Shown here: in pieces, positions 28,500 to 48,404 of the stretch | Layout: the number at the start of each line of letters is the position of its first letter | Numbering within the stretch: the stretch's first letter is position 1 | Source of the DNA: Kutzneria chonburiensis | GTDB taxonomy: Bacteria > Actinomycetota > Actinomycetes > Mycobacteriales > Pseudonocardiaceae | Direction of reading: 5' to 3' | Length of the DNA: 64,000 nucleotides | Assembly (NCBI RefSeq): GCF_028622115.1 | Contig: NZ_CP097263.1 | Location: 6,076,001-6,140,000, forward strand | The notes under the pieces: model-generated | What the model saw: the letters and a program-made list of their open reading frames with translations, nothing else | What the model was told of the DNA's origin: nothing | Database searches by the model: none | Position numbers and translations under genes: made by a program

Positions 28500-28584
28500 C
28501 CCCCGCGAGTCCCGCCCACAGTCACACCGAATGCGTGAAACGGATTCGTCATTTCGGTGTGACGCTGAGCGGGACTCGCGGGGG
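28500..28584. repeat. Palindromic element, family P2 copy A
   Basis: 85 bp. The outer stem CCCCCGCGAGTCCCGC against GCGGGACTCGCGGGGG is a perfect 16 bp; an inner stem CACACCGAA/TTCGGTGTG follows; the centre reads GCGTGAAACGGATTC. It lies between convergent genes and begins 6 bp after the CtaG stop and ends 7 bp before the lysozyme-like stop. Confidence 0.85.
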
Positions 28585-28591
28585 TGGCTGG

Positions 28592-29071
28592 TCAGGCGGG
28601 GGTGTTCACCGCCTGCTCGGCCTCGGACAGATAGTCCTTGTAGGCGCCGTTCTCCCACGTCGACCACTGGTCCCAGGTCGCGCCCTGGGACGAGATGTCG
28701 AAGGCCGCCTTGGCGTTCTGGACCGGATCGAAGGCCTGCTGCTCGCTGATCTCGGGGTGCCAGTAGTCGTTGATCTGCCACAGGCCGCGGTCGCGGGTGC
28801 AGTTCTCGTTGACCAGCAGCGCGTGGGTGAAGCCGCTGCTCTCGGCCAGCGCGACCGCGACCGCGTTGATCAGGCCCTGGCCGGTGAAACCGGCGTCCTT
28901 GGCCAACTTGGCCAACTGGGCGGCCGAATACTGGTCGCCTTCCGACTTGCTCACCGACGCACACTTCTCGTGCTCGACCGGGGCGGAGGCCGGCACGTGG
29001 GCGGGCGGCACCGAGCCGGCCAGCAATGCCGACGCCGCGACCGCGACGAGCCGGGACAGCGCTTGAATCAC
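28592..29071 (-). CDS. Secreted lysozyme/transglycosylase-like protein
   Basis: Exported peptidoglycan-active protein, 159 residues. From GTG at 29071 (CGGAG 8 bp upstream) the signal is IQALSRLVAVAASALLAG. The mature domain has YSAAQLAKLAKDAGF, then AVALAESSG with the likely catalytic Glu, DRGLWQINDYWHPE and FDPVQNAKAAF, the pattern of lytic-transglycosylase-like (SLT/GH23-related) domains in actinobacterial secreted proteins and phage tails. One disulfide (EKC / ENC) is likely. The upstream 235 bp up to the SDR gene hold no recognised riboswitch. Confidence 0.82.
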   Translation of the reverse strand: MIQALSRLVAVAASALLAGSVPPAHVPASAPVEHEKCASVSKSEGDQYSAAQLAKLAKDAGFTGQGLINAVAVALAESSGFTHALLVNENCTRDRGLWQINDYWHPEISEQQAFDPVQNAKAAFDISSQGATWDQWSTWENGAYKDYLSEAEQAVNTPA

Positions 29072-29306
29072 CTCGGGGCTCCGAACTGCCGGGAACGTGA
29101 ACACGTCCAGCTAATGCGGAAATTCGGGGCTGCGGCGAGGAACCTGTCCCGATCAGGACGAAAATCGCCTGTCGCGCAACCAAAAGCGGTGGACCACCTA
29201 GTGAAAACGTTGTGGTTGCGCCGTCGCACAATTGTTGCACAACCAGGACGTCGAAGTCACGCGTCAAGCAGAACCGTCATCCACCAACGAATAGCACGGG
29301 CCGACG

Positions 29307-30176
29307 TCATTCAGCGCGGCCCATCGGGTCGAGCGATGCGGCCGTCGCATCGTCATGGTCGGTGGAAACGCTGATATACCGCCACTTCTCATCCTCAGCC
29401 ACCCTCGCCTGCGCGACCACCGCCGCGTACTGCACGGCATCGCTGCCCAGCAGCAACCGCACCGGCGGCTCGTCGAGATCGGCCACGGTCAGCACTGCTC
29501 GCGCCACCTTCGCCGGATCGCCCGCCGGCGCGACTTCCGTGCTGTCGAACATCGCCGCCAGCGCCCCGACCGTCGGCCGATACGGCTCGCTGATCGGCGG
29601 CACCGTCATCGACGATCCCGCCCAGTCCGTACGCATTCCGCCCGGCTCCAGCACCGTCACCTTGATCCCCAGCGGCGCCACTTCCTGCGCCAGCACTTCG
29701 GAAAACCCGCCCACCGCCCACTTCGCCGCCTGATACGCCGCCAGTCCCGGCGTCGCCACCCGGCCGCCCAGCGAGGACACCTGGATGATCCGCCCGCTGC
29801 CCTGTTTCCTCAGCACCGGCAGCGCCGCCTTGCTCACGTTCACCACGCCCAGCAGATTCGTCTCCAGCTGCGCCCGGAAGTCCGCCGGTTCACTGTCTTC
29901 GACCGACACCAGATTCGCGTACCCGGCGTTGTTCACCACCACGTCCAGCCGCTCGAAGGCGTCCACCGCCGCCTTCACCGCCTCTTCCGCCGCCTCTGCG
30001 TCAGTCACGTCCAGCCCCACCGCCCGTACCCGGTCGCCGTACTCCGCCACCAGATCCGCCAGCTGCTCCGGCTTCCTCGCCGTCGCCACCACCCGATCCC
30101 CCGCCTCGAGCGCCGCCACCACAATCTCCCGCCCCAGCCCGCGCGAGCTCCCCGTCACCAGCCACACCCGATCCAT
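29307..30176 (-). CDS. Short-chain dehydrogenase/reductase
   Basis: NAD(P)-dependent SDR of classical type, 289 residues. TGSSRGLG (8-15) binds the cofactor, NNAGY at about 82-86, catalytic Ser in VSSLGG and YQAAK as the active Tyr/Lys. ARK after the second strand suggests NADP preference. C-terminus extended by about 40 residues. GGAG lies 5 bp before the ATG. Two copies of a TetR-type operator flank the promoter (30187-30206 and 30244-30263), so it is tightly repressed by a regulator encoded elsewhere. Substrate unknown. Confidence 0.93.
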   Translation of the reverse strand: MDRVWLVTGSSRGLGREIVVAALEAGDRVVATARKPEQLADLVAEYGDRVRAVGLDVTDAEAAEEAVKAAVDAFERLDVVVNNAGYANLVSVEDSEPADFRAQLETNLLGVVNVSKAALPVLRKQGSGRIIQVSSLGGRVATPGLAAYQAAKWAVGGFSEVLAQEVAPLGIKVTVLEPGGMRTDWAGSSMTVPPISEPYRPTVGALAAMFDSTEVAPAGDPAKVARAVLTVADLDEPPVRLLLGSDAVQYAAVVAQARVAEDEKWRYISVSTDHDDATAASLDPMGRAE

Positions 30177-30186
30177 CCCGGCTCCT

Positions 30187-30206
30187 TATTGAGTGAACGT
30201 TCATTA
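30187..30206. promoter_or_regulatory. TetR-type operator 1 upstream of the SDR gene
   Basis: Core palindrome TGAACGTTCA. The 18 bases TTATTGAGTGAACGTTCA recur in inverted orientation at operator 2. It lies 11 bp upstream of the SDR start codon, within the leader. Confidence 0.75.
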
Positions 30207-30243
30207 CTGACATCAGAAGGCTAGGCCGGGCCCCGAGCGGCTG

Positions 30244-30270
30244 TCAAGTGAACGTTCACTCAATAATGGC
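30244..30270. promoter_or_regulatory. TetR-type operator 2 upstream of the SDR gene
   Basis: Perfect palindrome AGTGAACGTTCACT (30247-30260), centre 55 bp from operator 1 and in opposite orientation to it. Together they would bracket the promoter; the spacing is about five helical turns, which suits looping or two cooperating dimers. Confidence 0.75.
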
Positions 30271-30314
30271 GACAAAAACAACGGCGGCGGGGTCGCCCGC
30301 CGCCGCTCACGTGC

Positions 30315-30974
30315 TCAGAACAGGCGGAACTCGTCGGAGTCGGTGCCCTTGAGGGCGTCGTAGTCCAGGGTCACGCAGCGGATCCCGCGGTCCTCGGCCA
30401 GGGTGCGGGCCTGGGGCTTGATCTGCTGGGCGGCGAAGACGCCCTTGACCGGGGCCAGCAGCGGATCCCGGTTGAGCAGCTCGAGGTAGCGGGTCAGCTG
30501 CTCGACGCCGTCGATCTCGCCACGGCGCTTGATCTCGACCGCGACAGAGACGCCGTCGTTGTCGCGGCACATGAGGTCGACGGGGCCGATGGCGGTGGGG
30601 AACTCCCGCCGCACCAGGGACCAGCCGTCGCCGAGGGTGGTGACGTGCTCGGCCAGCAGCACCTGGAGGTGGGCCTCGACCCCGTCCTTGACCAGGCCGG
30701 GCTCGATGCCGAGCTCGTGCTTGGAGTCGTGCATGACCTCCTCGACGGAGATCACCAGCTTCTCGCCGGCCTTGTTCTGCACGGTCCACACGCCCGGGTC
30801 CTCGATCAGCCAGCACGGCGGGCTCATCCAGTTCAACGGCTTGTAGGCCCGGTCGTCGGAGTGCACCGACACCGACCCGTCGGCCTTGATGAGCAGCAGC
30901 CGGTTGGCCATCGGCAGATGGGCGGTCAACCTGCCGACGTAGTCGACCTGGCACCGCGCGATCACAAGACGCAC
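30315..30974 (-). CDS. nucS: Mismatch-specific endonuclease NucS (EndoMS)
   Basis: Cuts both strands at G-T, G-G and T-T mismatches and replaces MutS/MutL mismatch repair in most actinobacteria. 219 residues from GTG at 30974, giving the family N-terminus [21 protein letters not shown]; a GTG at 31004 would add ten residues. [13 protein letters not shown] marks the N-terminal DNA-binding domain; the RecB-like nuclease core has DLMCRDND and [10 protein letters not shown] (Asp and Glu-X-Lys) and QLTRYLELL. Divergent from a NUDIX gene. Confidence 0.94.
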
Positions 30975-31057
30975 GGCGAACGAAGGTACCGGGACGATCG
31001 CCACCCTGCGCGCCCGGGGCTGCCGCGCCGAAAAACCAGCCTGAAAGGATCGGGCCC

Positions 31058-31594
31058 GTGGAGACGACCCAATCGCGCGAGGTGTATCGCAACGCCTGGA
31101 TGACGGTCCGCGAGGACGACATCCGCCGCCCGGACGGCTCGCCCGGCATCTACGGCGTGGTGGACAAGCCGAACTACGCGCTGGTCATCCCGCTGGACGG
31201 GGACCGGCTGCGCCTGGTCGAGCAGTTCCGGTACCCGCTGGGCGAACGACGCTGGGAGTTCTGCCAGGGCACGGCGCCGGATCTGGCCAGCGTGGAGGCG
31301 AAGGAGCTGGCGGCACGGGAGCTGCGCGAGGAGACGGGGCTGCGGGCGGAGGAGCTGATCGAGCTGGGCGTCCTGGACGTGGCGCCGGGCATGTCGAGCC
31401 AGCGGGGCACGGTGTTCCTGGCGACGGGCCTGACCGAAGGCGAGCCGGAGCGTGAGCTGGAAGAGCAGGACATGCGCTCGGCCTGGATCCACCGGGCCGA
31501 GTTCGAGGCGATGATCGCCCGCGGCGAGATCACCGACGCCCAGAGCGTGGCGGCGTACATGCTGCTGCTCCTGCACGAGTCGCGGCAGCCGTAG
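31058..31594 (+). CDS. NUDIX hydrolase, ADP-ribose pyrophosphatase-like
   Basis: Hydrolyses a nucleoside diphosphate derivative, most likely ADP-ribose. 178 residues; GTG at 31058 with AAAGGA about 8 bp upstream. Opens [19 protein letters not shown], then [19 protein letters not shown], the usual block before the Nudix box. The box itself is seen as AAKE-type [19 protein letters not shown], with the REXXEE metal ligands intact. Divergent from nucS and followed by a LysR gene. Confidence 0.92.
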
Positions 31595-31634
31595 ATCGGC
31601 TACGTGTTCGGCGAAAAGCCTTAAGCTCGTCTAC

Positions 31635-32513
31635 ATGATGGATGTGCGACGGCTCGTGCTGCTGCGCGACCTGGCCGAGTACCAGACGGTGACGGCGGTG
31701 GCCGACGTGCACCACGTGACGGCCTCGGCCGTGTCCCAGCAGCTCAGGGCGCTGGAGGCCGAGGTCGGCAAGCCGCTGCTGCTGCGCGAAGGCCGGACGG
31801 TGCGGCTGACCAGCGCCGGCCGCGCGCTGGCCCGGCGCTGCGAAGACGTGCTGGCGGCGCTGGAACGGGCGTCGGCTGAGGTCAACGAGCTGGCCGGGAC
31901 GATCGACGGCGAGCTGGCGGTGGGCTGCTTCACCAGCGGCTTCCCGTCGGTCGTGCTGCCCATGACCGAGACCCTGCAGGCCCGCCACCCGCAACTGCGG
32001 TTCCGGTTTCACGAGGCCGAGCCCGAGGAGACCATCGCGATGCTGCGGCAGCGGCGGCTCGATCTCGTGGTGGCCTACCGCTACCGGCACCTGGGCACCG
32101 AACTCCAGCCAGGGGTGGTGGCGCTGCCGGTGTGCGACGACCCGTTCCTCATCTGCGTACCGGAAAGGCTGCGCGAGGCCGTCGAAACCGAGGGCCTGTC
32201 GGCGCTGAGCGAGCAGGCGTGGGTGTCCTATCCGGAAGGCAGTTGCCGCGAGGCCAACGTGCACGCGGCTCGCACCGCCGGCTTCACGCCCAAGCTGATC
32301 CACAGCTGCGCGAGCATCCCGGTGGCGCTGGACATGGTCGCGGCCGGCCTGTGCGTGACGATGATGCCGGGCATGGCCGCCCGCAACGCCCCGGCCGGGC
32401 TGGCCCTGATCCCGGCCCCTGGGCTGCACCGGAAGATCGAGGTCGTGGTGCGGGCCGGCACCGAACGCCAGCCGGTGATCGCCGCGGCACTGGCCGCGCT
32501 GGCCCAGCCGTAG
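31635..32513 (+). CDS. LysR-family transcriptional regulator
   Basis: 292 residues. N-terminal HTH: LVLLRDLAEYQTVTAVADVHHVTASAVSQQLRALE, then LLLREGRTVRLTSAGRAL; the C-terminal effector domain begins near residue 90 (GELAVGCFTSGFPSVVLP). TAAGCT seven bases upstream of the ATG fits a -10 box, and there is no ribosome site, so the mRNA is probably leaderless. Target unknown; it lies after a NUDIX gene and converges with a GH87 gene across a strong hairpin. Confidence 0.93.
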   Translation: MMDVRRLVLLRDLAEYQTVTAVADVHHVTASAVSQQLRALEAEVGKPLLLREGRTVRLTSAGRALARRCEDVLAALERASAEVNELAGTIDGELAVGCFTSGFPSVVLPMTETLQARHPQLRFRFHEAEPEETIAMLRQRRLDLVVAYRYRHLGTELQPGVVALPVCDDPFLICVPERLREAVETEGLSALSEQAWVSYPEGSCREANVHAARTAGFTPKLIHSCASIPVALDMVAAGLCVTMMPGMAARNAPAGLALIPAPGLHRKIEVVVRAGTERQPVIAAALAALAQP

Positions 32514-32546
32514 GCCGGATCCCCTGCCGCCACAGGGGATCCGGCC
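32513..32546. terminator. Perfect hairpin terminator between LysR and GH87 genes
   Basis: GGCCGGATCCCCTG pairs perfectly with CAGGGGATCCGGCC around CCGCCA, starting at the last base of the LysR stop codon and ending 8 bp before the GH87 stop. No T-tract; works in either direction. Confidence 0.8.
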
Positions 32547-32554
32547 CCGCCGGT

Positions 32555-34858
32555 TCAGGATCCGTAGACCTGGAACTCGGATACCTGGCCCGCGGGCCAG
32601 CCGTCGTTGCCGGTGAAGTTGAGCCGCAGGAAACGCTGGCTCGTGGCCGGCACGGTGATGGTCACGGTGTTGCCGGTTGCCGGATCGAACCGGTAGCCGG
32701 CCGAGCCGACCACGGTGGCGAACGAACCGCCGTCGGCGGAACCCTGTACGGACAAGGTTTCCGTGCGAGCGCCCCACGCGCTGGACGGCGGCAGGGTGAG
32801 CACGATGCGCCGCACCGAGGTCGACGAACCGAGGTCGACCTGCAACCACTGCGGGAAGGCGTTGTTGGCGCTTTCCCAGTAGCTGCTGGGGTTGTTGTCG
32901 TTGGCGTTGCCGGGACCGTAGACCTGGGTGTAGCTGCTGGCCGACATCGCCTTGCCCAGAGCCAGGTTTCCGCTCGGCGGGGTGGTGGTCGTGGTCGTCG
33001 TCGTGGTGGTCGTGGTGGTGGTCGTCGTGGTGGGCGGCTCGCCGCCACCGGGGTAGGTGTAGACCGGCGCTGGCCACGGTCCGCAGTACGGAGTCGCGGT
33101 GTACCAACCGGAATTGCCGCTGCCCTGGGTGATGGTGAAACTGTTGCCGAGGCAGCTGTAGATCGGGTTGGACGCGCCGACATGCGCGGCGGTGACGTTG
33201 GTGAAGCTGGCCGAACCGCCGGCCTGCAGTTGCAGCACGAAGGTTCCGGTGCCGTCGATGGTGATGTTGCTGAAGTGCACGTTGCTCACCGTCGAGCCCT
33301 CGACGGTCTGGATCGCCTCGTACGAGCTGTCCAGCAGGTTCGAGTCGGTGACGTTGACCGTGCCGTCCAGCGCGCCCTGCTGGGCGTCGAACCAGATCGC
33401 GCCGACGCCGAACTGCCAGTTGGGATCGAGCACGCCGGCCCGCAGGGTTGTGTTGCGTGCCAACGTGGTCGTGCCGGCGACATGCACGGAGTTGAAGCGG
33501 TTGGCCACGTGGATGCCGCCGCCCTGGGTCTGGGTATCGGTCACCACGTTGTCGGTCACGCTGTTGTCGTGACCGCCGTAGATGGCGATGTTGTTGGCCA
33601 GCATGGGCAGTTCGACGGTGTTGAACGAGAACGTGTTGTCGTGGTCGGCGTTGATCTCCGACCACATGGCCAGGCCGTCATCACCGGTGTTGCGCAGGAA
33701 GTTGTTGGTCACGGTGACATGGCTGATGCCGTCGTGCAGGTTGAGGCCGTCGGCGGTGACGTCCAGGATCCGGTTGTTGGACACGGTCAGGCCGTCGAAC
33801 GGCCCGTCCAGCCACAGCCCGACCTTGACGTGCTGGAGGAACAGACCCGAGACCACGGAACCGCCGCCGAGCGCGCCGCCGATGGCGTTGACCTGGTCGC
33901 AGTCGTTGCGCTCGGTGACCTCGCCGATGATCGCGAAGTCGTACAGCTTGACGTTACTGCTGACACCGGAGTTGCCGCCCTGGCCGCAGCTGTTGGGCTC
34001 GCCGAGGCCGAAGACGCCGACCCGGTTGCCGTGCAACACCGAGTACCACTGGCCGGCGCCCTGGATCGTCACGTTGTTGACGGTCAGGTGCTGGTTGACC
34101 GTGTACGTGCCCTGCGGCACGTACAGCACCTTGCCCTGGGACGACGCCGCCGCGATGGCGGTGACGAAGGCGCTGCCGGAGTCGGCCGCGCCGCTCGGGT
34201 CGGCGCCGTACGAGGTGACCGACAGCGAGCCCGCCGGCTGGCCGGTCGGCCCGGCCACGTTCTCGAAGTCGGCGGTGTCCAGCGTGACGGCGACCGAGGC
34301 CGCGTCGAGCTGGAACTTGACCTTGGTGCCGGCGGCCAGCGTGCTGCCGAACAGGGTCCGCACGTCGTCGTAGAGGTGGTGCTGGTTGCCGGCGCCCGGG
34401 TCGTTGGTGAACGGGTAGCCGCCGTAGTACCAGCTGTACTTGTTGGTCAGGGTCAGGTCGCGGTTCTTGGCCCCGTTGACGTAGACCGCGATCGGTGTCG
34501 TGTACGCCGCGCCGCCGCCGGCGTCGGGCACGGAGTAGTGCAGGGTCACGGCGTTGGCCGGTGCGGTGAGGGTGAACTCCACGTACCGGCCGTTGCCGGA
34601 CAGCGTGACCGCCTTGCGGCCGGAGGCTTCGCCGGCCAGCGTGCCGGCGGCCCGGTTGGGGCCGATCACGGTGCCGTTGGTGCCGGCCGTCTCGGCCTCG
34701 TACTCGGTGAACGGCACGGTCGCGCCGCGGCCGCCGGTCGCCGCCGACGCCGATGGCGCCGCGTCGGGTGCCGCGAGGGCCAGGCCGACCAGCGTCGCCA
34801 GGGCCACGCCGGCGGAACCCAGTCGCAGGGATAAGGAACGCAGGGATCGCTTCGACAT
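32555..34858 (-). CDS. Secreted GH87 alpha-1,3-glucanase/mycodextranase with carbohydrate-binding domains
   Basis: Exported endoglucanase that should cleave alpha-1,3-linked glucan (fungal wall glucan, mutan) or nigeran. 767 residues; GGAG 7 bp before ATG. Order: signal peptide 1-39; CBM35-like domain about 48-200 (VPFTEYEAETAG); right-handed beta-helix about 210-600; an 18-Thr linker (about 610-627); C-terminal F5/8 type C (CBM32-like) domain about 632-767. In the helix, ADGLNLHDG (Asp370) and NTGDDGLAMWSE (Asp393, Asp394) match in kind and in exact spacing (23 and 24 residues) the three catalytic Asp of characterised GH87 enzymes. Suggests attack on fungal cell walls. Confidence 0.88.
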   Translation of the reverse strand: MSKRSLRSLSLRLGSAGVALATLVGLALAAPDAAPSASAATGGRGATVPFTEYEAETAGTNGTVIGPNRAAGTLAGEASGRKAVTLSGNGRYVEFTLTAPANAVTLHYSVPDAGGGAAYTTPIAVYVNGAKNRDLTLTNKYSWYYGGYPFTNDPGAGNQHHLYDDVRTLFGSTLAAGTKVKFQLDAASVAVTLDTADFENVAGPTGQPAGSLSVTSYGADPSGAADSGSAFVTAIAAASSQGKVLYVPQGTYTVNQHLTVNNVTIQGAGQWYSVLHGNRVGVFGLGEPNSCGQGGNSGVSSNVKLYDFAIIGEVTERNDCDQVNAIGGALGGGSVVSGLFLQHVKVGLWLDGPFDGLTVSNNRILDVTADGLNLHDGISHVTVTNNFLRNTGDDGLAMWSEINADHDNTFSFNTVELPMLANNIAIYGGHDNSVTDNVVTDTQTQGGGIHVANRFNSVHVAGTTTLARNTTLRAGVLDPNWQFGVGAIWFDAQQGALDGTVNVTDSNLLDSSYEAIQTVEGSTVSNVHFSNITIDGTGTFVLQLQAGGSASFTNVTAAHVGASNPIYSCLGNSFTITQGSGNSGWYTATPYCGPWPAPVYTYPGGGEPPTTTTTTTTTTTTTTTTTPPSGNLALGKAMSASSYTQVYGPGNANDNNPSSYWESANNAFPQWLQVDLGSSTSVRRIVLTLPPSSAWGARTETLSVQGSADGGSFATVVGSAGYRFDPATGNTVTITVPATSQRFLRLNFTGNDGWPAGQVSEFQVYGS
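32978..33031 (-). repeat. Threonine-codon tract (interdomain linker)
   Basis: Eighteen consecutive Thr codons (ACC/ACG mixture) joining the beta-helix to the C-terminal binding domain. Trinucleotide repeats of this type can vary in length between strains; here the mixed codons reduce slippage. Confidence 0.9.
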
Positions 34859-35061
34859 CGTCGTCTCCACTTCGGCGGGCAGGGTGCCTTGGTGTGACCG
34901 CCACGTTAAGAAGACAAGACGACTGACTGCAATATCTGGATCGAAAAGTCGCAAACTTTCTCGCGATCAACGCAAGTATGCGACGGCTGCGCAAGCGTGC
35001 AGCGGCGAGCGGCCGTCTGGTCGCCTACAGCAACGGTCCACCCCAGCAAGAACCAGCGCAA
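34859..35061. promoter_or_regulatory. Upstream region of the GH87 gene
   Basis: About 200 bp with lower GC than the genes. GAAAAGT-CGCAA-ACTTTC (34944-34960) is an inverted repeat and could be an operator; on the minus strand CTTGCG recurs twice with a related TTTGCG closer to the gene. Induction by a glucan-derived sugar is plausible, but no regulator is adjacent. The rest, up to the P2 palindrome, shows nothing I can name. Confidence 0.35.
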
Positions 35062-35155
35062 CCCCCGCAAACCCGGCGAGTCCCGCCTAGCGTCACACCG
35101 AACGCGTGAAACGGATTCACACATTCGGCGTGACGCTGAGCGGGACTCGCGGGGG
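35062..35155. repeat. Palindromic element, family P2 copy B
   Basis: 94 bp, same orientation as copy A. Right arm intact; left arm carries an extra AAACCCG inside CCCCCGC...GCGAGTCCCGC. The centre CGCGTGAAACGGATTCA is the same as in A and D. It lies 8 bp downstream of the crotonase-like gene stop (minus strand). Confidence 0.85.
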
Positions 35156-35163
35156 TTCAGGGG

Positions 35164-35943
35164 TCAGCTGGACCAGGTGGGGTGGCGCTTCTCTAGGAAG
35201 GCGGCCATGCCCTCGCGGGCGTCGTCCAACTGCGAAGCGGCGGCCATGACTTCCAAGGCCAGGGTGTACGCATCGGCTTCGGGGCGGTCGAGCTGGGCGT
35301 ACAGGGTCCGCTTGCCCAAGGCCTTGGAGGCACGGCTCCCCCGCGTCGCCCGGGCCAGCAGCTCGTCGACGGCGGAATCCAGCTCCGAGTCGGGCACGAC
35401 GCGGTTGACCAGACCCCACTCCAGCGCCGTGGCGGCGTCGATGGGGTCTCCGGTAAGGGCCATTTCCATTAGCCGCTTACGGCCGATGGCGCGGGCGACC
35501 GGCACGGACGGCGTGTGGCAGAACCAGCCGCCGTGCCCACCGGGCAGGGCGAAGCCGGCCGACGAAGCGGCCACGGCCAGGTCGCACGAGGCGACGAGCT
35601 GGCAACCGGCAGCGGTGGCCAAGCCCTGCACGCGAGCGATCACGACCTGCGGGGCGGCCTGGAGGGCCTGCATCAACGACGTGCACACCGCCAACAGGTC
35701 CCGCACGCCGAGCAGGTCACGGGCGGCCACGTCGCCGAAGTCGTGGCCGGCGGAGAACACGGGCCCGGCGGCGGCCAGCACGAGCCCGGTGGCGTCGGAG
35801 GCGGCCACCGAGCGGACGGCGTCCAACAGCTCACGGAGGTGGTCTTCGGACAGTGAATTGCGCCGCGATGGGCGGTTCATGGTGATCCGTGCCGTCGCGC
35901 CGGCACGGTCGAGCAGGATGTGCTGGTAGGAGGCCATGTCCAT
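35164..35943 (-). CDS. Crotonase-fold protein, ECHDC3-like, catalytic glutamates absent
   Basis: 259-residue enoyl-CoA hydratase/isomerase superfamily member; GGGAG 4 bp before ATG at 35943. FSAGHDFGDVAARD is the oxyanion-hole block and VIARVQGLATAAGCQLVASCDLAVA the second. Where active hydratases have GCEL the sequence has GCQL, and where they have the PE of the second catalytic Glu it has ALPGGHGG. Both Glu are therefore missing, as in the ECHDC3 group of unknown function. It should bind an acyl-CoA, but ordinary crotonyl-CoA hydration is unlikely. TACCATTGGTA upstream (36021-36031) may be its operator. Confidence 0.88.
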   Translation of the reverse strand: MDMASYQHILLDRAGATARITMNRPSRRNSLSEDHLRELLDAVRSVAASDATGLVLAAAGPVFSAGHDFGDVAARDLLGVRDLLAVCTSLMQALQAAPQVVIARVQGLATAAGCQLVASCDLAVAASSAGFALPGGHGGWFCHTPSVPVARAIGRKRLMEMALTGDPIDAATALEWGLVNRVVPDSELDSAVDELLARATRGSRASKALGKRTLYAQLDRPEADAYTLALEVMAAASQLDDAREGMAAFLEKRHPTWSS

Positions 35944-36340
35944 CACGCTCCCACACCCGGGAAGCATTCACAGCCAGTCACCCGACGCGTGCGCAGCGCA
36001 TTCCGGCAAAATCGTTCGAGTACCATTGGTAAGCAATTTCTCGAGTTCGATCCGGCCAATGCGCGCCAGCCAGGGCGTCTCGGCGACGGTCGTCACCCTG
36101 TGTCGACAAGTTGGACCGAGCACCAACCTAGTTTCACCCGAATGGCCTAGCATAGCTTAGGCCGAACAGGGTACGTCGGCGGCCTCCTGTCCGCCATTTC
36201 AATCACAATCCCGCCACGGACGGGCGATGAATCTGGCGCTGTTCAGCCATAGGTAAGAGAGTCTGCTGAACTCATGGGAACTGGTGAGTTCCCAACGGGT
36301 GCAAATTGACGCACGGTCGCCGAAGGCAGGGGATGAGACG
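35944..36340. promoter_or_regulatory. Divergent control region between the crotonase-like gene and the oligopeptide operon
   Basis: A 397 bp gap without a credible gene. It holds three exact palindromes: TACCA-T-TGGTA (36021-36031); GGCCTA-GCATAGCT-TAGGCC (36144-36163); and TGGGAACT-GGTG-AGTTCCCA (36275-36294), the last 46 bp before the permease ATG and able to fold in its leader. The middle one faintly resembles a metal-regulator box. Local GC is lower than in the genes. Probable promoters for both directions. Confidence 0.5.
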
Positions 36341-39224: not shown

Positions 39225-39243
39225 GCTGCTGTCAGCCGTCCCG

Positions 39244-40254: not shown

Positions 40255-41300
40255 TGACCGAACTGTACGAGCCGCCCGCGCAGCGCAGCTTCCTCGAGGT
40301 CGACGACCTGCGGGTGCACTTCAACACCGACGACGGCGTGGTCAAGTCGGTCGACGGCCTGTCGTTCAAGCTGGAGCGCGGCAAGACGCTGGGCATCGTC
40401 GGCGAGTCCGGCTCCGGCAAGAGCGTGAGCAGCATGGCCCTGATGGGCCTGCAGCGCTACGCCAGGGCCAAGATGACCGGCGAGATCTGGCTGGACGGCG
40501 AGGAGCTGCTGTCGGCCGACGACGAGCACGTGCGCTCGTTGCGGGGCAAGAAGATGGCGATGATCTTCCAGGACCCGCTGTCGGCCATGCACCCGTTCTA
40601 CACGGTCGGCGCGCAGATCATCGAGGCCTACCGGATCCACCACAAGGTGACCAAGGCGGTGGCCCGCAAGCACGCCATCGAGATGCTGGACCGGGTCGGC
40701 ATCCCGCAGCCGAACTCGCGGGTCGACGACTACCCCCACCAGTTCTCCGGCGGCATGCGGCAGCGCGCGATGATCGCCATGGCGCTGTGCTGCGACCCGG
40801 AGCTGCTGATCGCCGACGAGCCGACGACCGCGCTGGACGTCACCGTGCAGGCCCAGATCCTGGACCTGATCAAGGACCTCCAGCAGGAGTTCGGCTCGGC
40901 CGTCATCATCATCACGCACGACCTCGGCGTGGTGGCCGAGCTGGCCGACGACATCATGGTGATGTACGCCGGGCGCTCGGTCGAGCAGGGCAGCGCGCGC
41001 GAGGTGTTCCACTCGCCGCAGCACCCCTACACCTGGGGCCTGCTCGGCTCGATGCCGCGGCTGGACCGGGACCGCTCCGAACGGCTGCTGCCGATCAAGG
41101 GCACGCCGCCCAGCCTGATCAACGTGCCCAGCGGCTGCGCCTTCCACCCGCGCTGCGCGTACAAGGACATCCCCGGCGAGGTCACCACGTCACAGGTGCC
41201 CGAACTGGTCGACATCGGCAACGGCCACAAGGTGGCCTGCCACATGACCGTCGACCAGCGGCTGCGGATCTGGACCAACGAGATCCAGCCGAAACTCTAG
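40254..41300 (+). CDS. Oligopeptide ABC transporter ATPase (OppD/DppD type)
   Basis: ATPase subunit, 348 residues. Walker A GESGSGKS near residue 52, Q-loop [12 protein letters not shown], signature FSGGMRQR, Walker [15 protein letters not shown], and His in ITHDLGVV. The C-terminal oligo_HPY extension ([13 protein letters not shown], then CAFHPRCAY) has the Cys set that in related proteins binds an iron-sulfur cluster. Coupled to the permease upstream by a one-base overlap. Confidence 0.95.
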
Positions 41301-41304
41301 GAAT

Positions 41305-42330
41305 ATGGAGACCACTGTGGACAGTCTGTTGGCGGTTTCGGGGCTGCGCAAGCACTTCCCGATCCGGCGTGGACTGCTGCGCCGGCAGGTCGGCGCGGTC
41401 AAGGCCGTCGACGGGCTCGACTTCTCGGTGCGCACCGGCGAGACGCTGTCCCTGGTCGGCGAGTCCGGCTGCGGAAAGACCACCACCGGCCGGCTGCTGA
41501 CCCGGCTGCTGGAGCCGACCGACGGCAAGATCGTCTTCGAGGGACGGGACATCACCCACCTGTCCAACTCGGCGATGCGGCCGCTGCGCCGCGACGTGCA
41601 GATGATCTTCCAGGACCCGTACTCGTCGCTCAACCCGCGGCACAACGTCGGCACCATCATCGGCGCGCCGTTCCGGCTGCAGAAGGTGTCGACGCCGCAG
41701 GGCGTGAAGAAGGCCGTGCAGGAGCTGCTGGAGCTGGTCGGGCTCAATCCCGAGCACTACAACCGCTACCCGCACGAGTTCTCCGGCGGCCAGCGCCAGC
41801 GCATCGGCATCGCGCGGACGCTGGCCCTCAAGCCCAAGCTGATCGTGGCCGACGAGCCGGTGTCCGCGCTGGACGTGTCCATCCAGGCCCAGGTGATCAA
41901 CCTGCTCGAGGACCTGCAGAGCGAGCTGGACCTGACCTACGTGATGATCGCGCACGACCTGTCGGTGGTGCGGCACGTGTCCGACCGGGTCGCCGTGATG
42001 TACCTGGGCAAGATCATGGAGATCGCCGACCGGAACGCGCTGTACGAGCGGCCGATGCACCCGTACACGGTGGCGCTGCTGTCGGCGGTGCCGGTGCCGG
42101 ACCCGGAGAACAAGGGCAAGCGGGAGCGCATCCGCCTGGTCGGCGACGTGCCCAGCCCGATCAACCCGCCGCCGGCCTGCCGCTTCCACACCCGGTGCTG
42201 GAAGGCCCAGGACAAGTGCAAGACGGTGGAGCCGCCGCTGGTCGAGCTGGCCCCGGGCCAGCAGGTCGCCTGCCACTTCCCGGAGAACGTGCCGTCCTCC
42301 TCGGACAAGGCCACCGCCGCCGCGGAGTAA
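41305..42330 (+). CDS. Oligopeptide ABC transporter ATPase (OppF/DppF type)
   Basis: Second ATPase of the heterodimer, 341 residues from ATG at 41305. A GTG at 41317 has a better ribosome site (GGAG at 6 bp) and may be the real start. Walker [11 protein letters not shown]-loop [12 protein letters not shown], signature FSGGQRQR, Walker [15 protein letters not shown], and [11 protein letters not shown]. Ends with the oligo_HPY part ([20 protein letters not shown]). Last gene of the operon; a P2 palindrome follows 13 bp on. Confidence 0.94.
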
Positions 42331-42343
42331 ACCACACCCCCAA

Positions 42344-42428
42344 CCCCCGCGAGTCCCGCTCAGCGGCACACCGAACGTGTGAATCCGTTTCACGCTTTCG
42401 CTGTGACGCTAGGCGGGACTCGCGGGGG
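42344..42428. repeat. Palindromic element, family P2 copy C (inverted)
   Basis: 85 bp with the same 16-bp outer stem. The centre reads GTGAATCCGTTTCAC, the reverse complement of the centre in A, B and D, so the element as a whole is inverted here. It lies downstream of the oligopeptide operon. Confidence 0.85.
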
Positions 42429-42654
42429 TTTTGCTGTGGGTGGGCGGCGGCGGTTGCCCGTTCGAACAGGGGACGGGCATTGGCGGCACGTTCTGCCCCG
42501 CTCGCATATACCCCACCTGACCTGCGCTTATGGTGACGCCAACCGCGAGAACCGACCCCATTGTGACCGCAGTCACATCGTCCACAACTTGATTGTGCAC
42601 GATGTAATCGCATACGGTTCTGCCATCGAGATCGACCACGAAGGAGTCACCGAG
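42429..42654 (+). promoter_or_regulatory. Promoter region of the secreted hydrolase, with CRP/GlxR-type site
   Basis: TGTGACCGCAGTCACA (42562-42577) is an exact match to TGTGA-N6-TCACA, the CRP/GlxR consensus. Downstream TTGATT (42589-42594) and TACGGT (42613-42618) are spaced 18 bp and fit a promoter. The site is centred about 55 bp upstream of the expected start of transcription. This implies control by a cAMP-receptor-type regulator. Confidence 0.6.
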
Positions 42655-43482
42655 ATGAGCATCAAGGCCACCATCACCCGCACCCTGGCCATCGGCGCCG
42701 CCCTGGCCGTCACCGCCGGTCTGGCCCTGGCGCCGTCCTCCTCGGCCACCTCGGACGTCGCCGACAACCACGGCGGCCCGAAGCCCACGGTGATCCTGGT
42801 GCACGGCGCCTTCGCCGACGCGTCCAGCTGGAACGGGGAGATCACCGAGCTGGAGCGCCGCGGCTACCCGGTCATCGCGGCGGCCAACCCGCTGCGCAGC
42901 GTCGCCACCGACGCCGCGGCCATCCGCGGTCTCATCGAGAGCGTCAAGGGCGACGTCATCCTGGTCGGCCACTCCTACGGCGGCCAGGTCATCACCAACG
43001 CCGCGCTGGGCGAGAAGAACGTCAAGGCCCTGGTCTACGTGGCCGCGTTCCTGCCGGAGAAGGGCGAGTCCGCGCTCGGCCTGACCAACAAGTTCCCCGG
43101 CAGCACGCTGGCCGCCACCATCCAGACGGTCGCGCTGCCCGACGGCAACACCGACTTCTACGTCAAGCAGGACCTGTTCCCCAAGCAGTTCGCCGCCGAC
43201 GTGCCGCTGCCGCAGGCCAAGCTGATGGCCGCCACCCAGCGCCCGGTCACCCAGGCCGCGCTGACCGAGGCCTCGGGCGACGCCGCCTGGCACAGCATCC
43301 CGTCGTGGTCGATCATCCCGACCGGTGACAAGAACATCCCGGTGCAGGCCCAGGAGTGGATGGCGCAGCGGGCCCACGCCCACACCGTCGAGATCAAGGG
43401 CGCCTCGCACGCCGTCCTCGTCTCGCAGCCCCACGCCGTCACGGCCCAGATCATCGCCGCCGCCACCGCCACCACCCGCTGA
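42655..43482 (+). CDS. Secreted alpha/beta hydrolase
   Basis: Exported esterase-like protein, 275 residues; AAGGAG 9 bp before ATG. Signal peptide about 1-32 (ATITRTLAIGAALAVTAGLALAPSSSA). TVILVHGAFADASSWNGEI is the oxyanion strand, ILVGHSYGGQVITNAA the nucleophile elbow, and KGASHAVLVSQPHAV supplies the His. Belongs to the group with HGAFADASSW often called alpha/beta hydrolase or putative chloroperoxidase-like esterase. Substrate unknown. Possibly catabolite-regulated through the upstream CRP-type site. Confidence 0.88.
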   Translation: MSIKATITRTLAIGAALAVTAGLALAPSSSATSDVADNHGGPKPTVILVHGAFADASSWNGEITELERRGYPVIAAANPLRSVATDAAAIRGLIESVKGDVILVGHSYGGQVITNAALGEKNVKALVYVAAFLPEKGESALGLTNKFPGSTLAATIQTVALPDGNTDFYVKQDLFPKQFAADVPLPQAKLMAATQRPVTQAALTEASGDAAWHSIPSWSIIPTGDKNIPVQAQEWMAQRAHAHTVEIKGASHAVLVSQPHAVTAQIIAAATATTR

Positions 43483-43500
43483 CTTCGTCCACGACCTGAA

Positions 43501-43553
43501 GTTTGGAACGGACCATTCCTCTACTCGGAGTAGAGGAATGGTCCGTTCCAAAC
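43501..43553. repeat. Palindromic element, family P1 copy 3 (perfect, convergent terminator)
   Basis: A perfect inverted repeat of 26-base arms around one G; 53 bp in all. The arm starts GTTTGGAACGGACCATTCC and ends TCTACTC. It lies between the convergent stops of the secreted hydrolase and the B12 mutase. Confidence 0.85.
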
Positions 43554-43567
43554 GTTCGGGGTGGGGG

Positions 43568-45559
43568 TTACAGCTGGTTGGCGGTGCGGATGACGGTGAC
43601 GATCTCGTCCATGATCTGGGTGAGCTCGTAGTCCTTGGGCGTGAAGACGCGGGCCACACCGCGTTCGGCGAGCACGGCGGCGTCGTCGGGCGGGATGATG
43701 CCGCCGACGATCACCGGCACCTCGCCGGCACCGGCGGCGCGCAGGCCATCCACGACCGCCGGCACGACCTCCAGGTGCGAGCCGGACAGCACGGACAGGC
43801 CGACGATGTGCACGTCCTCCTGCACCGCGGCGGCCACGATCTGCGCCGGGGTCAGCCGGATCCCCTGGTAGATCACCTCGAAGCCGACGTCACGGGCCCG
43901 CACGGCGATCTGCTCGGCCCCGTTGGAATGGCCGTCCAGCCCGGGCTTGCCGACCAGGATCCGCAGCCGCTCGCCGAGCTGCTTTCCGGTCTCCTGCACG
44001 CGTTCCCGCACAGCGGCGATGGCCGACCCGGCCTCGCCGACCGCCGCGGCGGCGGAAACCCCGGTCGGGGCACGGTATTCGCCGAACGCCTCGCGTAGCG
44101 CGGCCGCCCACTCGCCGGTCGTCACGCCGGCCCGGGCGCAGGCCAGGCTGGCCTCCATCAGGTTCTCGTCGGTCTTGGCGGCGTCCCGCAGGGCCGCCAG
44201 CGACGCCTCGACGGCCGCGTTGTCCCGCTCAGAACGCCAACGCTGCAACGCCTCCACGGCGTGCTTCTCCACCGCCGGATCGATGGTCTCGATGGCCTTC
44301 GCGCCCTCGGCCTGCAACGGCGACGGCTCGCTGGTGTCGAACTTGTTCACGCCGACGATCACGTCCTCGCCGGCCTCCAGCCGACGACGGCGCTCGGCCA
44401 GCGAGCTCACCAGCGAGGACTTCATGTAGCCACTCTCGACGGCGGCGACCGCGCCGCCCATGGCCTGCACGCGGTCGATCTCCTCGCGGGCCCCGGCCAG
44501 CAGCTCGTCCACCTTGGCCTGCACCACGTGCGAGCCGTCGAAGATGTCCTCGTACTCCAGCAGATCCGTCTCGTAGGCCAGCACCTGCTGCATGCGCAGC
44601 GCCCACTGCTGGTCCCACGGCCGCGGCAGCCCGAGCGCCTCGTTCCACGCCGGCAGCTGGATCGCACGGGCCCTTGCGTTGCGGGACAAGGAAACCGCCA
44701 GCATCTCCAGCACGATCCGCTGCACGTTGTTCTCCGGCTGGGCCTCGGTCAGCCCCAGCGAGTTGACCTGCACGCCGTAGCGGAAGCGGCGCTGCTTGGG
44801 GTCGGCGATGCCGTAGCGGTCGCGGGTGACCTCGTCCCACAGCTGCGCGAACGCCCGCATCTTGCACATCTCCTCGACGAACCGCACGCCGGCGTTGACG
44901 AAGAAGGAGATGCGGGCGACCACGTCGCCCATGCGCTCGGCCGGCACCTGCCCGGAGTCGCGGACCGCGTCCAGCACGGCGATGGCCGTGCACATCGCGT
45001 ACGCGATCTCCTGAACCGGCGTCGCACCGGCCTCCTGGAGGTGGTACGAGCAGACGTTGATCGGGTTCCACTTCGGCACATTCGCCACGGTCCACGCGAC
45101 CATGTCGGTGATCAGCCGCAGGCTCGGCCCGGGCGGGAACACGTACGTGCCGCGGGACAGGTACTCCTTGATGATGTCGTTCTGCGTGGTGCCGGCCAGC
45201 TTCGTCACGTCGGCGCCGTCTTCCTCGGCGACGCTGACGTAGAGCGCCAGCAGCCACATGGCCGTGGCGTTGATCGTCATCGACGTGTTGGCCTCGGCCA
45301 TGGGGATCTGGTCGAACAGCTGGCGCATGTCGCCGATGTGCGCGACGGGCACGCCGACCTTGCCGACCTCGCCCTTGGCCAGCTCGTGGTCGGAGTCGTA
45401 GCCGGTCTGCGTCGGCAGGTCGAACGCCACCGACAGGCCGGTCTGGCCCTTGGCCAGGTTGCGGCGGTAGAGCGCGTTGGACGCGGCCGCCGACGAGTGT
45501 CCGGCGTAGGTGCGCATCACCCACGGTCGGTCGCGGTCGCGATCGGTCGGGTACGGCAC
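43568..45559 (-). CDS. B12-dependent acyl-CoA mutase, ethylmalonyl-CoA mutase (MeaA/Ecm) type
   Basis: Rearranges the acyl-CoA carbon skeleton with adenosylcobalamin; by similarity ethylmalonyl-CoA to methylsuccinyl-CoA. 663 residues: substrate barrel about 1-520, then a B12-binding domain with GKPGLDGHSNGAEQIAV (DxHxxG lower-ligand motif) and GLSVLSGSHL. The N-terminal part (RPWVMRTYAGHSSAAASNALYR, LAKGQTGLSVAFDLPTQTGYD) and ALGLPRPWDQQW match Ecm/MeaA more than methylmalonyl-CoA mutase. GTG with GGAGG 6 bp before it. Ccr, epimerase and MeaB in this window fit the same pathway; isobutyryl-CoA mutase is less likely, since that enzyme's subunits are split or fused to MeaB. Confidence 0.93.
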   Translation of the reverse strand: MPYPTDRDRDRPWVMRTYAGHSSAAASNALYRRNLAKGQTGLSVAFDLPTQTGYDSDHELAKGEVGKVGVPVAHIGDMRQLFDQIPMAEANTSMTINATAMWLLALYVSVAEEDGADVTKLAGTTQNDIIKEYLSRGTYVFPPGPSLRLITDMVAWTVANVPKWNPINVCSYHLQEAGATPVQEIAYAMCTAIAVLDAVRDSGQVPAERMGDVVARISFFVNAGVRFVEEMCKMRAFAQLWDEVTRDRYGIADPKQRRFRYGVQVNSLGLTEAQPENNVQRIVLEMLAVSLSRNARARAIQLPAWNEALGLPRPWDQQWALRMQQVLAYETDLLEYEDIFDGSHVVQAKVDELLAGAREEIDRVQAMGGAVAAVESGYMKSSLVSSLAERRRRLEAGEDVIVGVNKFDTSEPSPLQAEGAKAIETIDPAVEKHAVEALQRWRSERDNAAVEASLAALRDAAKTDENLMEASLACARAGVTTGEWAAALREAFGEYRAPTGVSAAAAVGEAGSAIAAVRERVQETGKQLGERLRILVGKPGLDGHSNGAEQIAVRARDVGFEVIYQGIRLTPAQIVAAAVQEDVHIVGLSVLSGSHLEVVPAVVDGLRAAGAGEVPVIVGGIIPPDDAAVLAERGVARVFTPKDYELTQIMDEIVTVIRTANQL

Positions 45560-45759
45560 GGCCCACCTCCGGTCACGGCGTCGTGTCGACCCAGCGTACT
45601 GGCGGGTAACAACGGTTGCCCGGTGGAGTTCCTCACACGATCGATCGAGAAGGTCCCGCTCGCGGTGAAACCGAAACCGGTCACACCCGGCCCGGCAACC
45701 GGTGGGAAACGGCCGGCGTCATCCCCCACGTAATGATCATCAATCCAAGGGGGACCACC

Positions 45760-46371
45760 ATGGTTGTCCGCACCGCCGCCGCCATCGCCGCCGCGTTGAC
45801 CCTGCTCACCGTGCCGGCCGCGGCCATCGCCACCGCCGCGCCGGCCCCGCACGGCCAGCCGACCTGGGACCAGCTCTACGCCCAGCAGACGGCCAACCGT
45901 GAGCACACCGCGGCGGTGTTCCCGAAGCTGGTGCCCGGCGCCCGTGACATCGACCTGTCCGACTTCGGCAACGACCGGGTCAGCCAGTTCAACGGGCAGA
46001 GCTACCTCGGCGGCCAGGTCTGGTTCACCGACGCCGACGGCGGCGAGAACCTGTACATCCAGGTCTCCGGCCCGACCACGCTCGACGCGCTCCAGCAGGG
46101 CTGCGCCAAGGTCACGCGGTGCACCACGCGGCGCGAGACCAACGGCTCGCACACCTACGTGCTGGAGAACGACGAGCAGACCCCGGCCGGCACCGCCACC
46201 ACCCGGTTCGCCGAGAACCTGCGCAGCGACGGCACCCTGGTCCTGGTGCAGGAGCACAACTACCTGCCGGAGCGGGACGGCGGCGAGCCCAGCGGCGCGA
46301 TCCACAAGACGTTCCCGCTGAGCACCGACCAGCTGCTCACCCTGGCCCGCGACCGCGCGTACCAGATCTGA
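45760..46371 (+). CDS. Secreted protein of unknown function
   Basis: 203 residues; AGGGGGA 6 bp before ATG. Signal peptide about 1-29 (VRTAAAIAAALTLLTVPAAAIATA). Mature protein is hydrophilic, with one Cys pair (QGCAKVTRC), beta-like stretches (GGQVWFTDADGGENLYIQVSG) and THTYVLENDEQ. It appears to be a single compact exported domain. I know it only as a hypothetical protein of actinomycetes. Converges with murA 24 bp further. Confidence 0.75.
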   Translation: MVVRTAAAIAAALTLLTVPAAAIATAAPAPHGQPTWDQLYAQQTANREHTAAVFPKLVPGARDIDLSDFGNDRVSQFNGQSYLGGQVWFTDADGGENLYIQVSGPTTLDALQQGCAKVTRCTTRRETNGSHTYVLENDEQTPAGTATTRFAENLRSDGTLVLVQEHNYLPERDGGEPSGAIHKTFPLSTDQLLTLARDRAYQI

Positions 46372-46395
46372 GCCGGCCAAGCCGTGGCGTCAGGC

Positions 46396-47664
46396 CTACT
46401 GCTCCGGCGCCGCGGCGACCCGCTCGACGTTGCCGCCGAGCCGCTGCATGTTCTCCACGAACTGCGGGTAGCCGCGGTCGATGTGGAAGACGTCCCACAC
46501 GTCGGTGACGCCGTCGGCGCACAGCGCGCCCAGCACCAGGCCGACGCCGGCCCGGATGTCCGAGGCCCACACCGGGGCCGCCGACAGCCGGTCGAGGCCG
46601 CGCACGACCGCGTGGTGGCCGTCGGTGCGGGCGTCCGCGCCCATCCGGACCATCTCCTCGATGAACCGGAACCGGGACTCGAACAGGTTCTCCGTGATCA
46701 TCGACGTGCCGTCGGCCACCGCGGCCATGGCGATGGCGAACGGCTGGAGGTCGGTGGCGAAGCCCGGGTAGGGCAGCGTCACGAAGTCGACCGCCTTGGG
46801 CCGCTGGCTCATCACCACGCGGAAGCCGTCCTCGTTCGGCGTGACGTCCGCGCCGGCCATCCGCAGCTTCTCCAGCACGAGGTCGAGGTGGTGCGGGTCG
46901 ACGCCGCGCACCGTGATGTCGCCCCGCGTGACGGCGGCGGCGAAGCCCCAGGTCGCGCCGACGATCCGGTCGCCGATCACCCGGTGGTTCGTCGGCTCCA
47001 GCTTCTCGACGCCGTGCACGGTCAGCGTGGACGTGCCGGCGCCCTCGATCTTGGCCCCCATCTGCACCAGCATCGTGCAGAGGTCGCTCATCTCCGGCTC
47101 GCGGGCGGCGTTGTCGATCACCGTCGTGCCGTTGGCCAGCACCGCGGCCATCAGGATGTTCTCGGTCGCCCCCACGCTGGGGAAGTCCAGCCAGATCTGC
47201 GCGCCGCGCAGATCCTCGGCCTGGGCCACCACGCAGCCGTGCTCGATCGTGCTGGTCGCACCGAGCTGGCGCAGGCCGCTCTGGTGCATGTCCAGCGGAC
47301 GCTGGCCGATCGCGTCGCCTCCGGGCAGCGCCACCACGGCGCGCTTGCAGCGGCCCACCAGCGGCCCCAACACGCACACCGAGGCCCGCAGCTTGCCCAC
47401 CGACGGGGACGTGGCCTCGTGGTTGAGCTGGGCCGGCGTGGTGATGGTGACGGTGCCGCCGTCCACGACGACGTCACAGCCCAGGTCGCGCAGCACGTCC
47501 GCCATCAGCGGCACGTCCAGGATCTCCGGGCAGTTGGTGAGCGTGGTCGTGCCCTCGGCCAGCAGGGCCGCGGCCATCAGCTTGAGCACGCTGTTCTTGG
47601 CGCCGACCACGTCGACCGTGCCGACCAGCCGTGCCCCGCCCTCGACCCTGAAATGCTCGCTCAA
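46396..47664 (-). CDS. murA: UDP-GlcNAc 1-carboxyvinyltransferase MurA (Asp117, fosfomycin-insensitive type)
   Basis: First committed step of peptidoglycan synthesis: transfers enolpyruvate from PEP to UDP-GlcNAc. 422 residues from TTG at 47664 with AGGAG 7 bp upstream. KN motif [14 protein letters not shown] at 19-32; active-site loop [15 protein letters not shown]. The catalytic Cys (115 in E. coli) is Asp117, the same residue and number as in Mycobacterium tuberculosis, which makes the enzyme resistant to fosfomycin. Divergent from the cobalamin adenosyltransferase gene. Confidence 0.95.
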
Positions 47665-47742
47665 CCTGTATCTCCTAGCGTTTTCGCCCGGCGGGAGCCG
47701 CCGACCATCGTACGGAAACGGGAAAAGGCCTAGGGTCCGGGT

Positions 47743-48315
47743 ATGTCCGTGCACCTGACCCGCATCTACACCCGTGTCGGCGACGACGGCACCACCGCCC
47801 TCGGCGACTTCAGCCGCGTCCCCAAGACCTCGCCCCGGCTGGCCGCCTACGCCGACGTCGACGAGACCAACGCGGCCATCGGGGTGGCCATCGCACTCGG
47901 TCAGTTGCCCGAGGAGCTCTCCGGGTTGCTCCGCAAGATCCAGAACGACCTCTTCGACGTCGGAGCCGACCTCTGCACGCCGATCGTCCCCGATCCGAAG
48001 TATCCGCCGCTGCGGGTCACCCAGGCCTACGTCGACCGCCTGGAAGGCTGGTGCGACGAGCACAACGCCGACCTGCCGGCGCTCAAGTCGTTCATCCTCA
48101 ACGGCGGCACGCCCGGGGCGGCGCTGCTGCACCAGGCCCGCACCATCACCCGCCGGGCCGAGCGGGCCACCTGGGCCCTGCTGGAGGCCGAGGCGGAGCA
48201 GACCAACGTGCTGGCCGCCAAGTACCTCAACCGGCTGTCCGACCTGCTGTTCATCCTGGCCCGCGTGGCCAACCCCGACGGCGACGTCCTCTGGCAGCCC
48301 GGCGGCAACGCCTAA
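47743..48315 (+). CDS. Cob(I)alamin adenosyltransferase, PduO type
   Basis: Adds the adenosyl group of ATP to cob(I)alamin, giving the cofactor of the mutase at 43568-45559. 190 residues, all-helical PduO fold. N-terminal ATP-binding [31 protein letters not shown], and the C-terminal block [13 protein letters not shown]...[15 protein letters not shown] are present. In actinobacteria it usually lies next to the atp operon and murA, as here. Converges with DUF2550-atp through a P2 palindrome. Confidence 0.94.
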
Positions 48316-48318
48316 GAA

Positions 48319-48404
48319 CCCCCGCGAGTCCCGCCCACAGTCATACCGAATGCGTGAAACGGATTCATGCATTTCGGTGTGACGCTAAGCGGGACTCGCG
48401 GGGG
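48319..48404. repeat. Palindromic element, family P2 copy D (end of the ATP synthase operon)
   Basis: 86 bp, same orientation as A and B, 16-bp outer stem perfect. It fills the gap between the adenosyltransferase stop and the DUF2550 stop (3 bp on each side), and is therefore the only visible terminator of the atp operon. Confidence 0.85.

Follow-up and report, generated by a model that had tools for sequence, protein, structure and literature searches.

Palindromes at gene 3′ ends

The window analyzed in this study is a 64,000-nucleotide stretch of the Kutzneria chonburiensis genome (G000:C1:6076001-6140000; G000, hereafter the own genome, is a single contig of 10.41 Mb). It carries four composite palindromes, copies A to D, each located near the 3′ end of a gene as an earlier note on this DNA had described, with the start of copy B placed at 35072 (Table 1). 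The core of the element is 75-77 bp long, or about 85-93 bp when the outer C/G ends are included. The outer stem CCCCCGCGAGTCCCGC with its complement, the inner stem CACACCGAA/TTCGGTGTG and a centre of the GAATCCGTTTC type were all recovered, with a mismatch near the outer end of the left arm in copy B and single inner-stem changes in copies B, C and D. For seven strand stretches spanning copies A to D, the predicted hairpins have folding energies between -65 and -71 kcal/mol, with z scores between -8.1 and -10.6 relative to shuffles, and a scan of the window against Rfam at the gathering threshold gave no match. Copy A is separated by 6 and 7 bp from the stop codons of the CtaG-like and lysozyme-like genes, copy D by 3 bp from either stop codon, and the gene following copy C is co-directional with the oligopeptide ATP-binding cassette (ABC) transporter gene. 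Four copies in 20 kb represent a high local density, as the earlier note had remarked (P = 0.0044 under random placement of the 48 copies that measure 74-78 bp).

Table 1 Palindromes of the window (positions in the window) and related slots in the relative G002. A slot is a gene end at which the own genome carries a copy.
Feature	Position	Strand	Context
Copy A	28500..28584	.	Convergent gap between a CtaG-like gene (stop 28493, +) and a lysozyme-like gene (stop 28592, -)
Copy B	35072..35155	.	8 bp from the stop codon at 35164 (enoyl-CoA hydratase gene, -)
Copy C	42344..42428	.	13 bp past the stop codon at 42330 (oligopeptide ABC transporter gene, +)
Copy D	48319..48404	.	Between a cobalamin adenosyltransferase gene (stop 48315, +) and a DUF2550 gene (stop 48408, -)
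Outer arm motif GCGAGTCCCGC of copy A	28505..28515	+	Inverted partner at 28569-28579; the dialect position is base 8
G002 slots with a ATGCAGGGAAGGACGCCTTACCC-type palindrome	Orthologous to own 4036174, 5895608, 6337276		Loci L215, L222, L279

Under the strict pattern, the own genome contains 37 arm pairs, compared with 0 for the reversed pattern, and the 11-base arm GCGAGTCCCGC is found 160 times, far above the 16 of its reversed control. The palindromes therefore exceed chance and form a repeat dispersed over gene 3′ ends, in line with the earlier note. Among 100 listed arm places, 75 fall in arm pairs or in places matched by a covariance model built from 19 copies, and 25 lie outside them. 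In the own genome, the model gave 117 strand matches at no fewer than 59 places, a lower bound because only 150 of the 6140 candidates were scored; at two of these places the match is weak, with E about 0.001-0.002. In further inverted arm pairs (108 bp, 156-195 bp) the inside is longer or nested, elements are nested within elements at loci 532033 and 5623715, and identical cores are present at 5195241 and 6567314, 1.37 Mb apart. The two sides of a copy carry different inner-half variants in 38 of the 46 readable own copies and the same variant in 8, and the halves are drawn from a common pool of variants. The polarity of the centre is only loosely linked to that of the arms, with 22 copies against 10 among the 32 of 48 that are readable. 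Because both polarities occur, the orientation of the centre cannot give that of the element; copy C, whose arm polarity is unreadable by this rule, can therefore no longer be called inverted as a whole, a candidate event that the polarities do not decide. Likewise, the 7-base insertion once assigned to an arm of copy B looks like native flank, and in relatives a comparable CGCAACCCC(C)GCAA-type stretch precedes the element.

Positions relative to genes were read from the calls of a simple codon-score caller over 60 own regions and the window (1.24 Mb, 1174 genes). The 67 arm pairs found there, which include nested duplicates at two loci and one likely chance pair in coding DNA, are distributed over convergent gaps (30), co-directional gaps (32, in two groups of 17 and 15), one divergent gap and called open reading frames (ORFs; 4). 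For the 62 arm pairs towards which a gene ends, the nearest relevant stop codon lies at a median distance of 4 bp, with 54 of them no farther than 15 bp, and in 23 of the 30 convergent pairs both stops are within 15 bp. Arm pairs occupy 30/194 convergent, 17/371 and 13/351 co-directional and 1/195 divergent gaps, numbers of which only the contrast between gap classes is meaningful because the regions were picked around copies; convergent gaps are enriched over divergent ones (Fisher 4.6e-9). By eye, no clear strand bias is seen in the co-directional gaps. This layout resembles that of a bidirectional terminator, and the hairpins probably act in termination.

Shared slots and species dialects in Kutzneria

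To compare slots between species, a coding flank of each of 35 copies was searched in the Kutzneria genomes G002, G003 and G006, and the window region, which includes its four copies, in six relatives. Of the 39 slots, 34 gave 97 comparisons in which both flanks aligned in G001, G002, G003 or G006, with flank identities of 75 to 96% (median 89.5). In 51 of the 97, the palindrome of the relative has a different inside, its arm being either unchanged or a variant, and in 6 (3 in G002 and 3 in G003) the same subtype is present. A separate orthology test covered all short gaps: opposite an own copy, the relative shows an arm pair in 52 of 94 comparisons, vs 0 of 210 opposite own gaps that lack one (Fisher 6e-33, with comparisons treated as independent), and convergent gaps without an own copy gave 0 of 25 in the relatives. 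Both arms are identical in 50 of the 57 slot elements of relatives, a count whose information lies in the few free arm positions, as the search expression fixes most of them. The earlier note had held that identical positions and sequences in distant relatives, with no empty sites, would speak for fixed terminators rather than mobile elements; among congeners the positions are shared far beyond the background, but the sequences mostly differ and element-free sites exist.

The end of pduO (window 47743-48315), whose protein is 99% identical to one in Kutzneria sp. CA-103260, was inspected by eye in 80 of 554 loci. Besides the own genome, arm-type palindromes are present there in CA-103260, buriramensis and sp. 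744, and other hairpins in K. viridogrisea and in those Lentzea loci that have a hairpin.

The spelling of the elements differs between species. In the seven Kutzneria genomes, base 8 of the outer arm GCGAGTC[C/A/G]CGC behaves as a species dialect under the strict pattern: arms with CCCGC number 37 in the own genome, 64 in G006, 12 in G003, 11 each in G002 and G005, 2 in G001 and 0 in G004; those with CACGC number 37 in G003, 18 in G002, 2 in the own genome, 1 in G006 and 0 in G001, G004 and G005; and those with CGCGC number 13 in G001 and 0 in the other six genomes, counts that are not strictly comparable because the gap ranges of the three patterns differ. Beneath the same C arm, G006 mostly has insides of the CAACTGAATGTCGAG type.

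The arm also exists outside Kutzneria but is patchy there: in an even sample of 297 genomes from a larger set of the bacterial family, the arm-pair pattern occurs in 16, including 6 of the 7 Kutzneria genomes. G014, from another genus, has 41 copies with nested GAGTCCCGC hairpins, and its two inspected loci adjoin a gene 3′ end. Four arm pairs are present in G215 and one in each of eight further genomes, seven of which resemble one conserved coding sequence and are probably due to chance. In addition, GAGTCCCGC hairpins that differ in their insides and are arranged in tandem or tightly nested were seen in G014 (loci L016 and L022) and in G005 (K. viridogrisea).

Origin of the dialects

For 51 slot comparisons (57 of arm type minus 6 longer than 140 bp), the median identity of an own copy was 0.67 to its orthologue and 0.88 to its paralogues, the latter inflated because own copies were collected by similarity, and the orthologue fell below the paralogue median in 46 of the 51. 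A comparison among relatives only is less biased: elements picked by slot have an identity of 0.76 among themselves in G006 (n 19) and 0.76 in G003 (n 16), vs 0.63 between G003 and G006 at the same slot, a figure based on 10 pairs. The genes flanking these slots are mostly 82-95% identical between species that differ in dialect at the same gene ends. Roughly half of these gene ends retain a hairpin in the related species, mostly in a different spelling, suggesting that hairpins copy or replace one another within a genome. We therefore lean, by a modest degree, towards a reading in which 3′-end hairpins, likely bidirectional terminators or insulators, sit in conserved slots and are overwritten within each genome, that is, undergo concerted evolution.

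A fuller version of this reading is offered more tentatively, namely that concerted evolution is genome-wide and proceeds without a transposase, with breakage and repair spreading a version from slot to slot and overwriting palindromes and even stop codons. In the preferred reading itself, palindromes in slots flush with stop codons, commonest between convergent genes, would serve as hairpin 3′ ends, and each would be repeatedly overwritten by the version current in its genome, leaving species with different dominant dialects. By the mechanism proposed for it, a long hairpin or cruciform would be cut, and the break would be repaired by copying from another palindrome via the short conserved arms, which would exchange insides or half-insides, could flip the centre and would sometimes lose the element. 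Long palindromes form hairpins that are cut by SbcCD, and sbcD, the gene searched for, is present in all seven Kutzneria genomes. Mixed half-insides are counted for breakage, as are two arrangements at half-elements. At 655444-656091 of the own genome (locus L083), about 0.55 kb separates two half-elements near the palindrome centre and includes a possible short ORF, weakly called (score 12.5), and extra genes adjoin a half-element in one G002 and one G006 slot. According to PMC3519483, inverted repeats cause instability in mycobacteria, and perfect inverted-repeat deletions arise only without single-strand annealing, which backs the idea of breakage only in general.

TAA is over-represented among the stop codons beside the elements. 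It ends 24 of the 63 genes that abut a 74-78-bp copy vs 66 of 1069 other genes (Fisher 2.7e-12). In relatives, it ends 19 of 74 genes whose stop has an arm element nearby; where the element is lacking, it ends 10 of 70 of the same genes and 13 of 187 genes elsewhere, so that the link is present there too but weaker than in the own genome. At 5469664, the own gene ends in TAA beside an element, and its orthologues in three relatives end in TGA with no arm element within 30 nt. Part of the TAA excess may stem from the element end reading AACCCCC; the excess at element edges also fits a replacement tract that reaches the stop codon.

Several observations weigh against overwriting of terminator-like hairpins, in addition to the uneven gap ranges, the similarity-based collection of own copies and the ten pairs given with the counts above. 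The dialects are non-exclusive, the own subtype being also present in G001, G002, G003 and G006, and G002 is a mixture of dialects. Inner halves are not freely shuffled, because the 8 same-variant pairs exceed the 2.5 expected under random pairing (p 0.0025). Another inverted repeat is found in 19 of the 97 slots and no palindrome by the criterion used in 21, although some of these are arm-type elements with a mutated arm or a cut at the edge (one contains N), which makes the arm-type slot count an undercount. Two comparisons that are not among the 97 also show no arm element, one at slot A (G005) and one at slot D (G004). Three G002 slots hold a different, arm-less palindrome family of the ATGCAGGGAAGGACGCC type (Table 1), which gene conversion via shared arms does not explain; such slots need either loss and regain or non-homologous replacement. 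Finally, a U-rich tract is rare after the stem (TTTT in 5 of 71 ends), and with this tract missing the hairpins are not intrinsic terminators of the classical type.

The strongest alternative, which we regard as rather unlikely, is that the elements are non-autonomous mobile palindromes resembling miniature inverted-repeat transposable elements (MITEs) or REPINs, hairpins formed by paired repetitive extragenic palindromic (REP) sequences, moved by a putative enzyme that recognises the GCGAGTCNCGC arms and targets gene 3′ ends or existing hairpins, the dialects being lineage bursts. Dispersed similar copies with conserved ends, the identical cores in distant slots, the nested elements at 532033 and 5623715 and the possible short ORF at 655444-656091 would all be accounted for. 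So would candidate empty sites in relatives, such as slot 7536701, where the gap is 6, 9 and 6 bp in three of them; the comparison of empty and filled sites advised in the earlier note thus does yield element-free sites, but reading 11 slots by eye, at which the junctions had changed, showed no target-site duplication. Furthermore, independent insertion would hardly yield shared slots in 52 of 94 comparisons vs 0 of 210, and convergent elements within 15 bp of both stops (23 of 30) could scarcely be accompanied by remnants of the other palindromes found in relatives.

The enzyme searched for was the REP-associated tyrosine transposase (RAYT). The corresponding family PF01797 (Y1_Tnp) has no match in the own genome, G001, G002, G004, G005, G006 or G014, a search that did not extend to other transposase families, and matches in 6 of 37 genomes overall, including a partial match of 33 positions in G003. 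Mobility by a RAYT is therefore unsupported even in the copy-rich G006 and G014, and RAYT-driven REPINs are rejected for the own genome because PF01797 is lacking. The earlier statement that the window lacks a transposase holds for the 10 proteins near the copies, none of which matched one in Pfam, and is unconfirmed beyond these. Two candidates for an autonomous element were also rejected, with no transposase seen by eye in either: of the arms at 3988733 and 3990823, one falls within a called gene and the other is accompanied by a half-element, and the half-elements at 655444-656091 enclose the weak ORF. As slots are shared, sequences differ and element-free sites exist, the palindrome does not qualify as a simple fixed terminator, and it is not demonstrated to be a mobile element either.

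It is improbable, though less so than an uptake signal, that ordinary terminators are selected for a motif bound by a host protein, such as a termination or nucleoid factor, with dialects that co-evolve and no copying between slots. Retention of the outer arm while insides change, in Kutzneria as in another genus of the family, and matched base changes on both arms agree with such selection. However, the insides and not only the arm are common to unrelated slots of one genome and changed at the orthologous slot, and the identical core pair 1.37 Mb apart also speaks against such selection. An uptake-signal-like watermark, comparable to the DNA uptake sequences (DUS) of Neisseriaceae and with inverted pairs doubling as terminators, would share the short motif in dialects and the inverted pairs at gene ends but is very improbable, as only 160 arm copies exist in the own genome, far rarer than DUS in Neisseria, and most of those listed stand in arm pairs or model places with few singles. 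Of the three routes to the dialects, palindrome-to-palindrome copying after breakage is preferred over a mobile system or selection of a motif.

Relation to known repeats and other palindromes

The closest known kinds are REP elements and the DUS dialects of Neisseriaceae. The likeness to REP sequences or bacterial interspersed mosaic elements (BIMEs) proposed in the earlier note holds in kind, the element being a repeated short extragenic palindrome in one genome, dispersed at gene 3′ ends; its mobility is unproven. As described in PMC3116915, REP/BIME/REPIN systems with a RAYT also consist of repeated extragenic palindromes, often in inverted pairs, whereas the Kutzneria element has no RAYT match, a longer nested palindrome, slots that are shared between species but differ in dialect, and no GTAG or CGTC tag. 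According to PMC3733652, GTAG- and CGTC-tagged REPs prefer convergent and unidirectional gaps downstream of coding regions, a preference similar to that of the Kutzneria palindromes. The Kutzneria ends read CCCCCGCGAG/CTCGCGGGGG, with neither tag seen by eye at the alignment ends (CGTC occurs inside the element). Membership in the REP/REPIN class thus fails on the transposase and the end tag, and that in the MITEs is unproven, although terminal inverted repeats are present.

For DUS, PMC3630211 describes motif dialects among related species and inverted pairs associated with terminators. Short-motif dialects among related species and inverted pairs recur in Kutzneria, but here the arm is mostly paired inside a long palindrome, and a role in uptake would be by analogy only. 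Intrinsic terminators share the strong symmetric hairpin within a few bases of stops, frequent between convergent genes, and differ in that the Kutzneria hairpin has no U-tract and its sequence is repeated across unrelated genes. Slot-conserved 3′-end hairpins with species dialects are therefore a better description than mobile REPs or MITEs. Among the matches listed, the open-licence PMC literature contains no paper on these palindromes, and neither Kutzneria nor Actinobacteri- appears in the main text of PMC12306157.

It has long been asked if gene conversion spreads palindromic repeats in bacteria, and the presence of a transposase makes this difficult to test; Higgins is said to have proposed this route for the evolution of REPs in 1988. 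In Kutzneria, where each genome offers tens of mapped slots, a RAYT match is lacking and sister species have different dialects at the same slots, copying can be traced directly. If true, the overwriting of hairpins would amount to a self-spreading terminator driven by DNA repair, a warning that terminators need not be inherited in place alongside their genes.

Further features were noted beside the family. A NucS endonuclease gene (Pfam NucS_C and NucS_N; window 30315-31004) lies 1.7 kb from copy A. Beside the palindrome of L246, which is the G002 counterpart of the own slot 6551352, two small ORFs look by eye like a nucleotidyltransferase/HEPN pair. A second palindrome family (GGAACGGACCATTCC ... 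GGAATGGTCCGTTCC) occurs in the window at 11768-11827, 22048-22107 and 43501-43560, each time in a convergent gap, and is probably a second terminator family. Arm-less inverted repeats of the own regions L031-L090 and the window have 10-mers in common, among them CCTTCCTGCA and CAGTAAGGGG, and are likewise concentrated in convergent gaps; at a score of at least 12, such repeats are present in 49 of 80 non-family convergent gaps of 25-400 bp vs 6 of 168 divergent ones.

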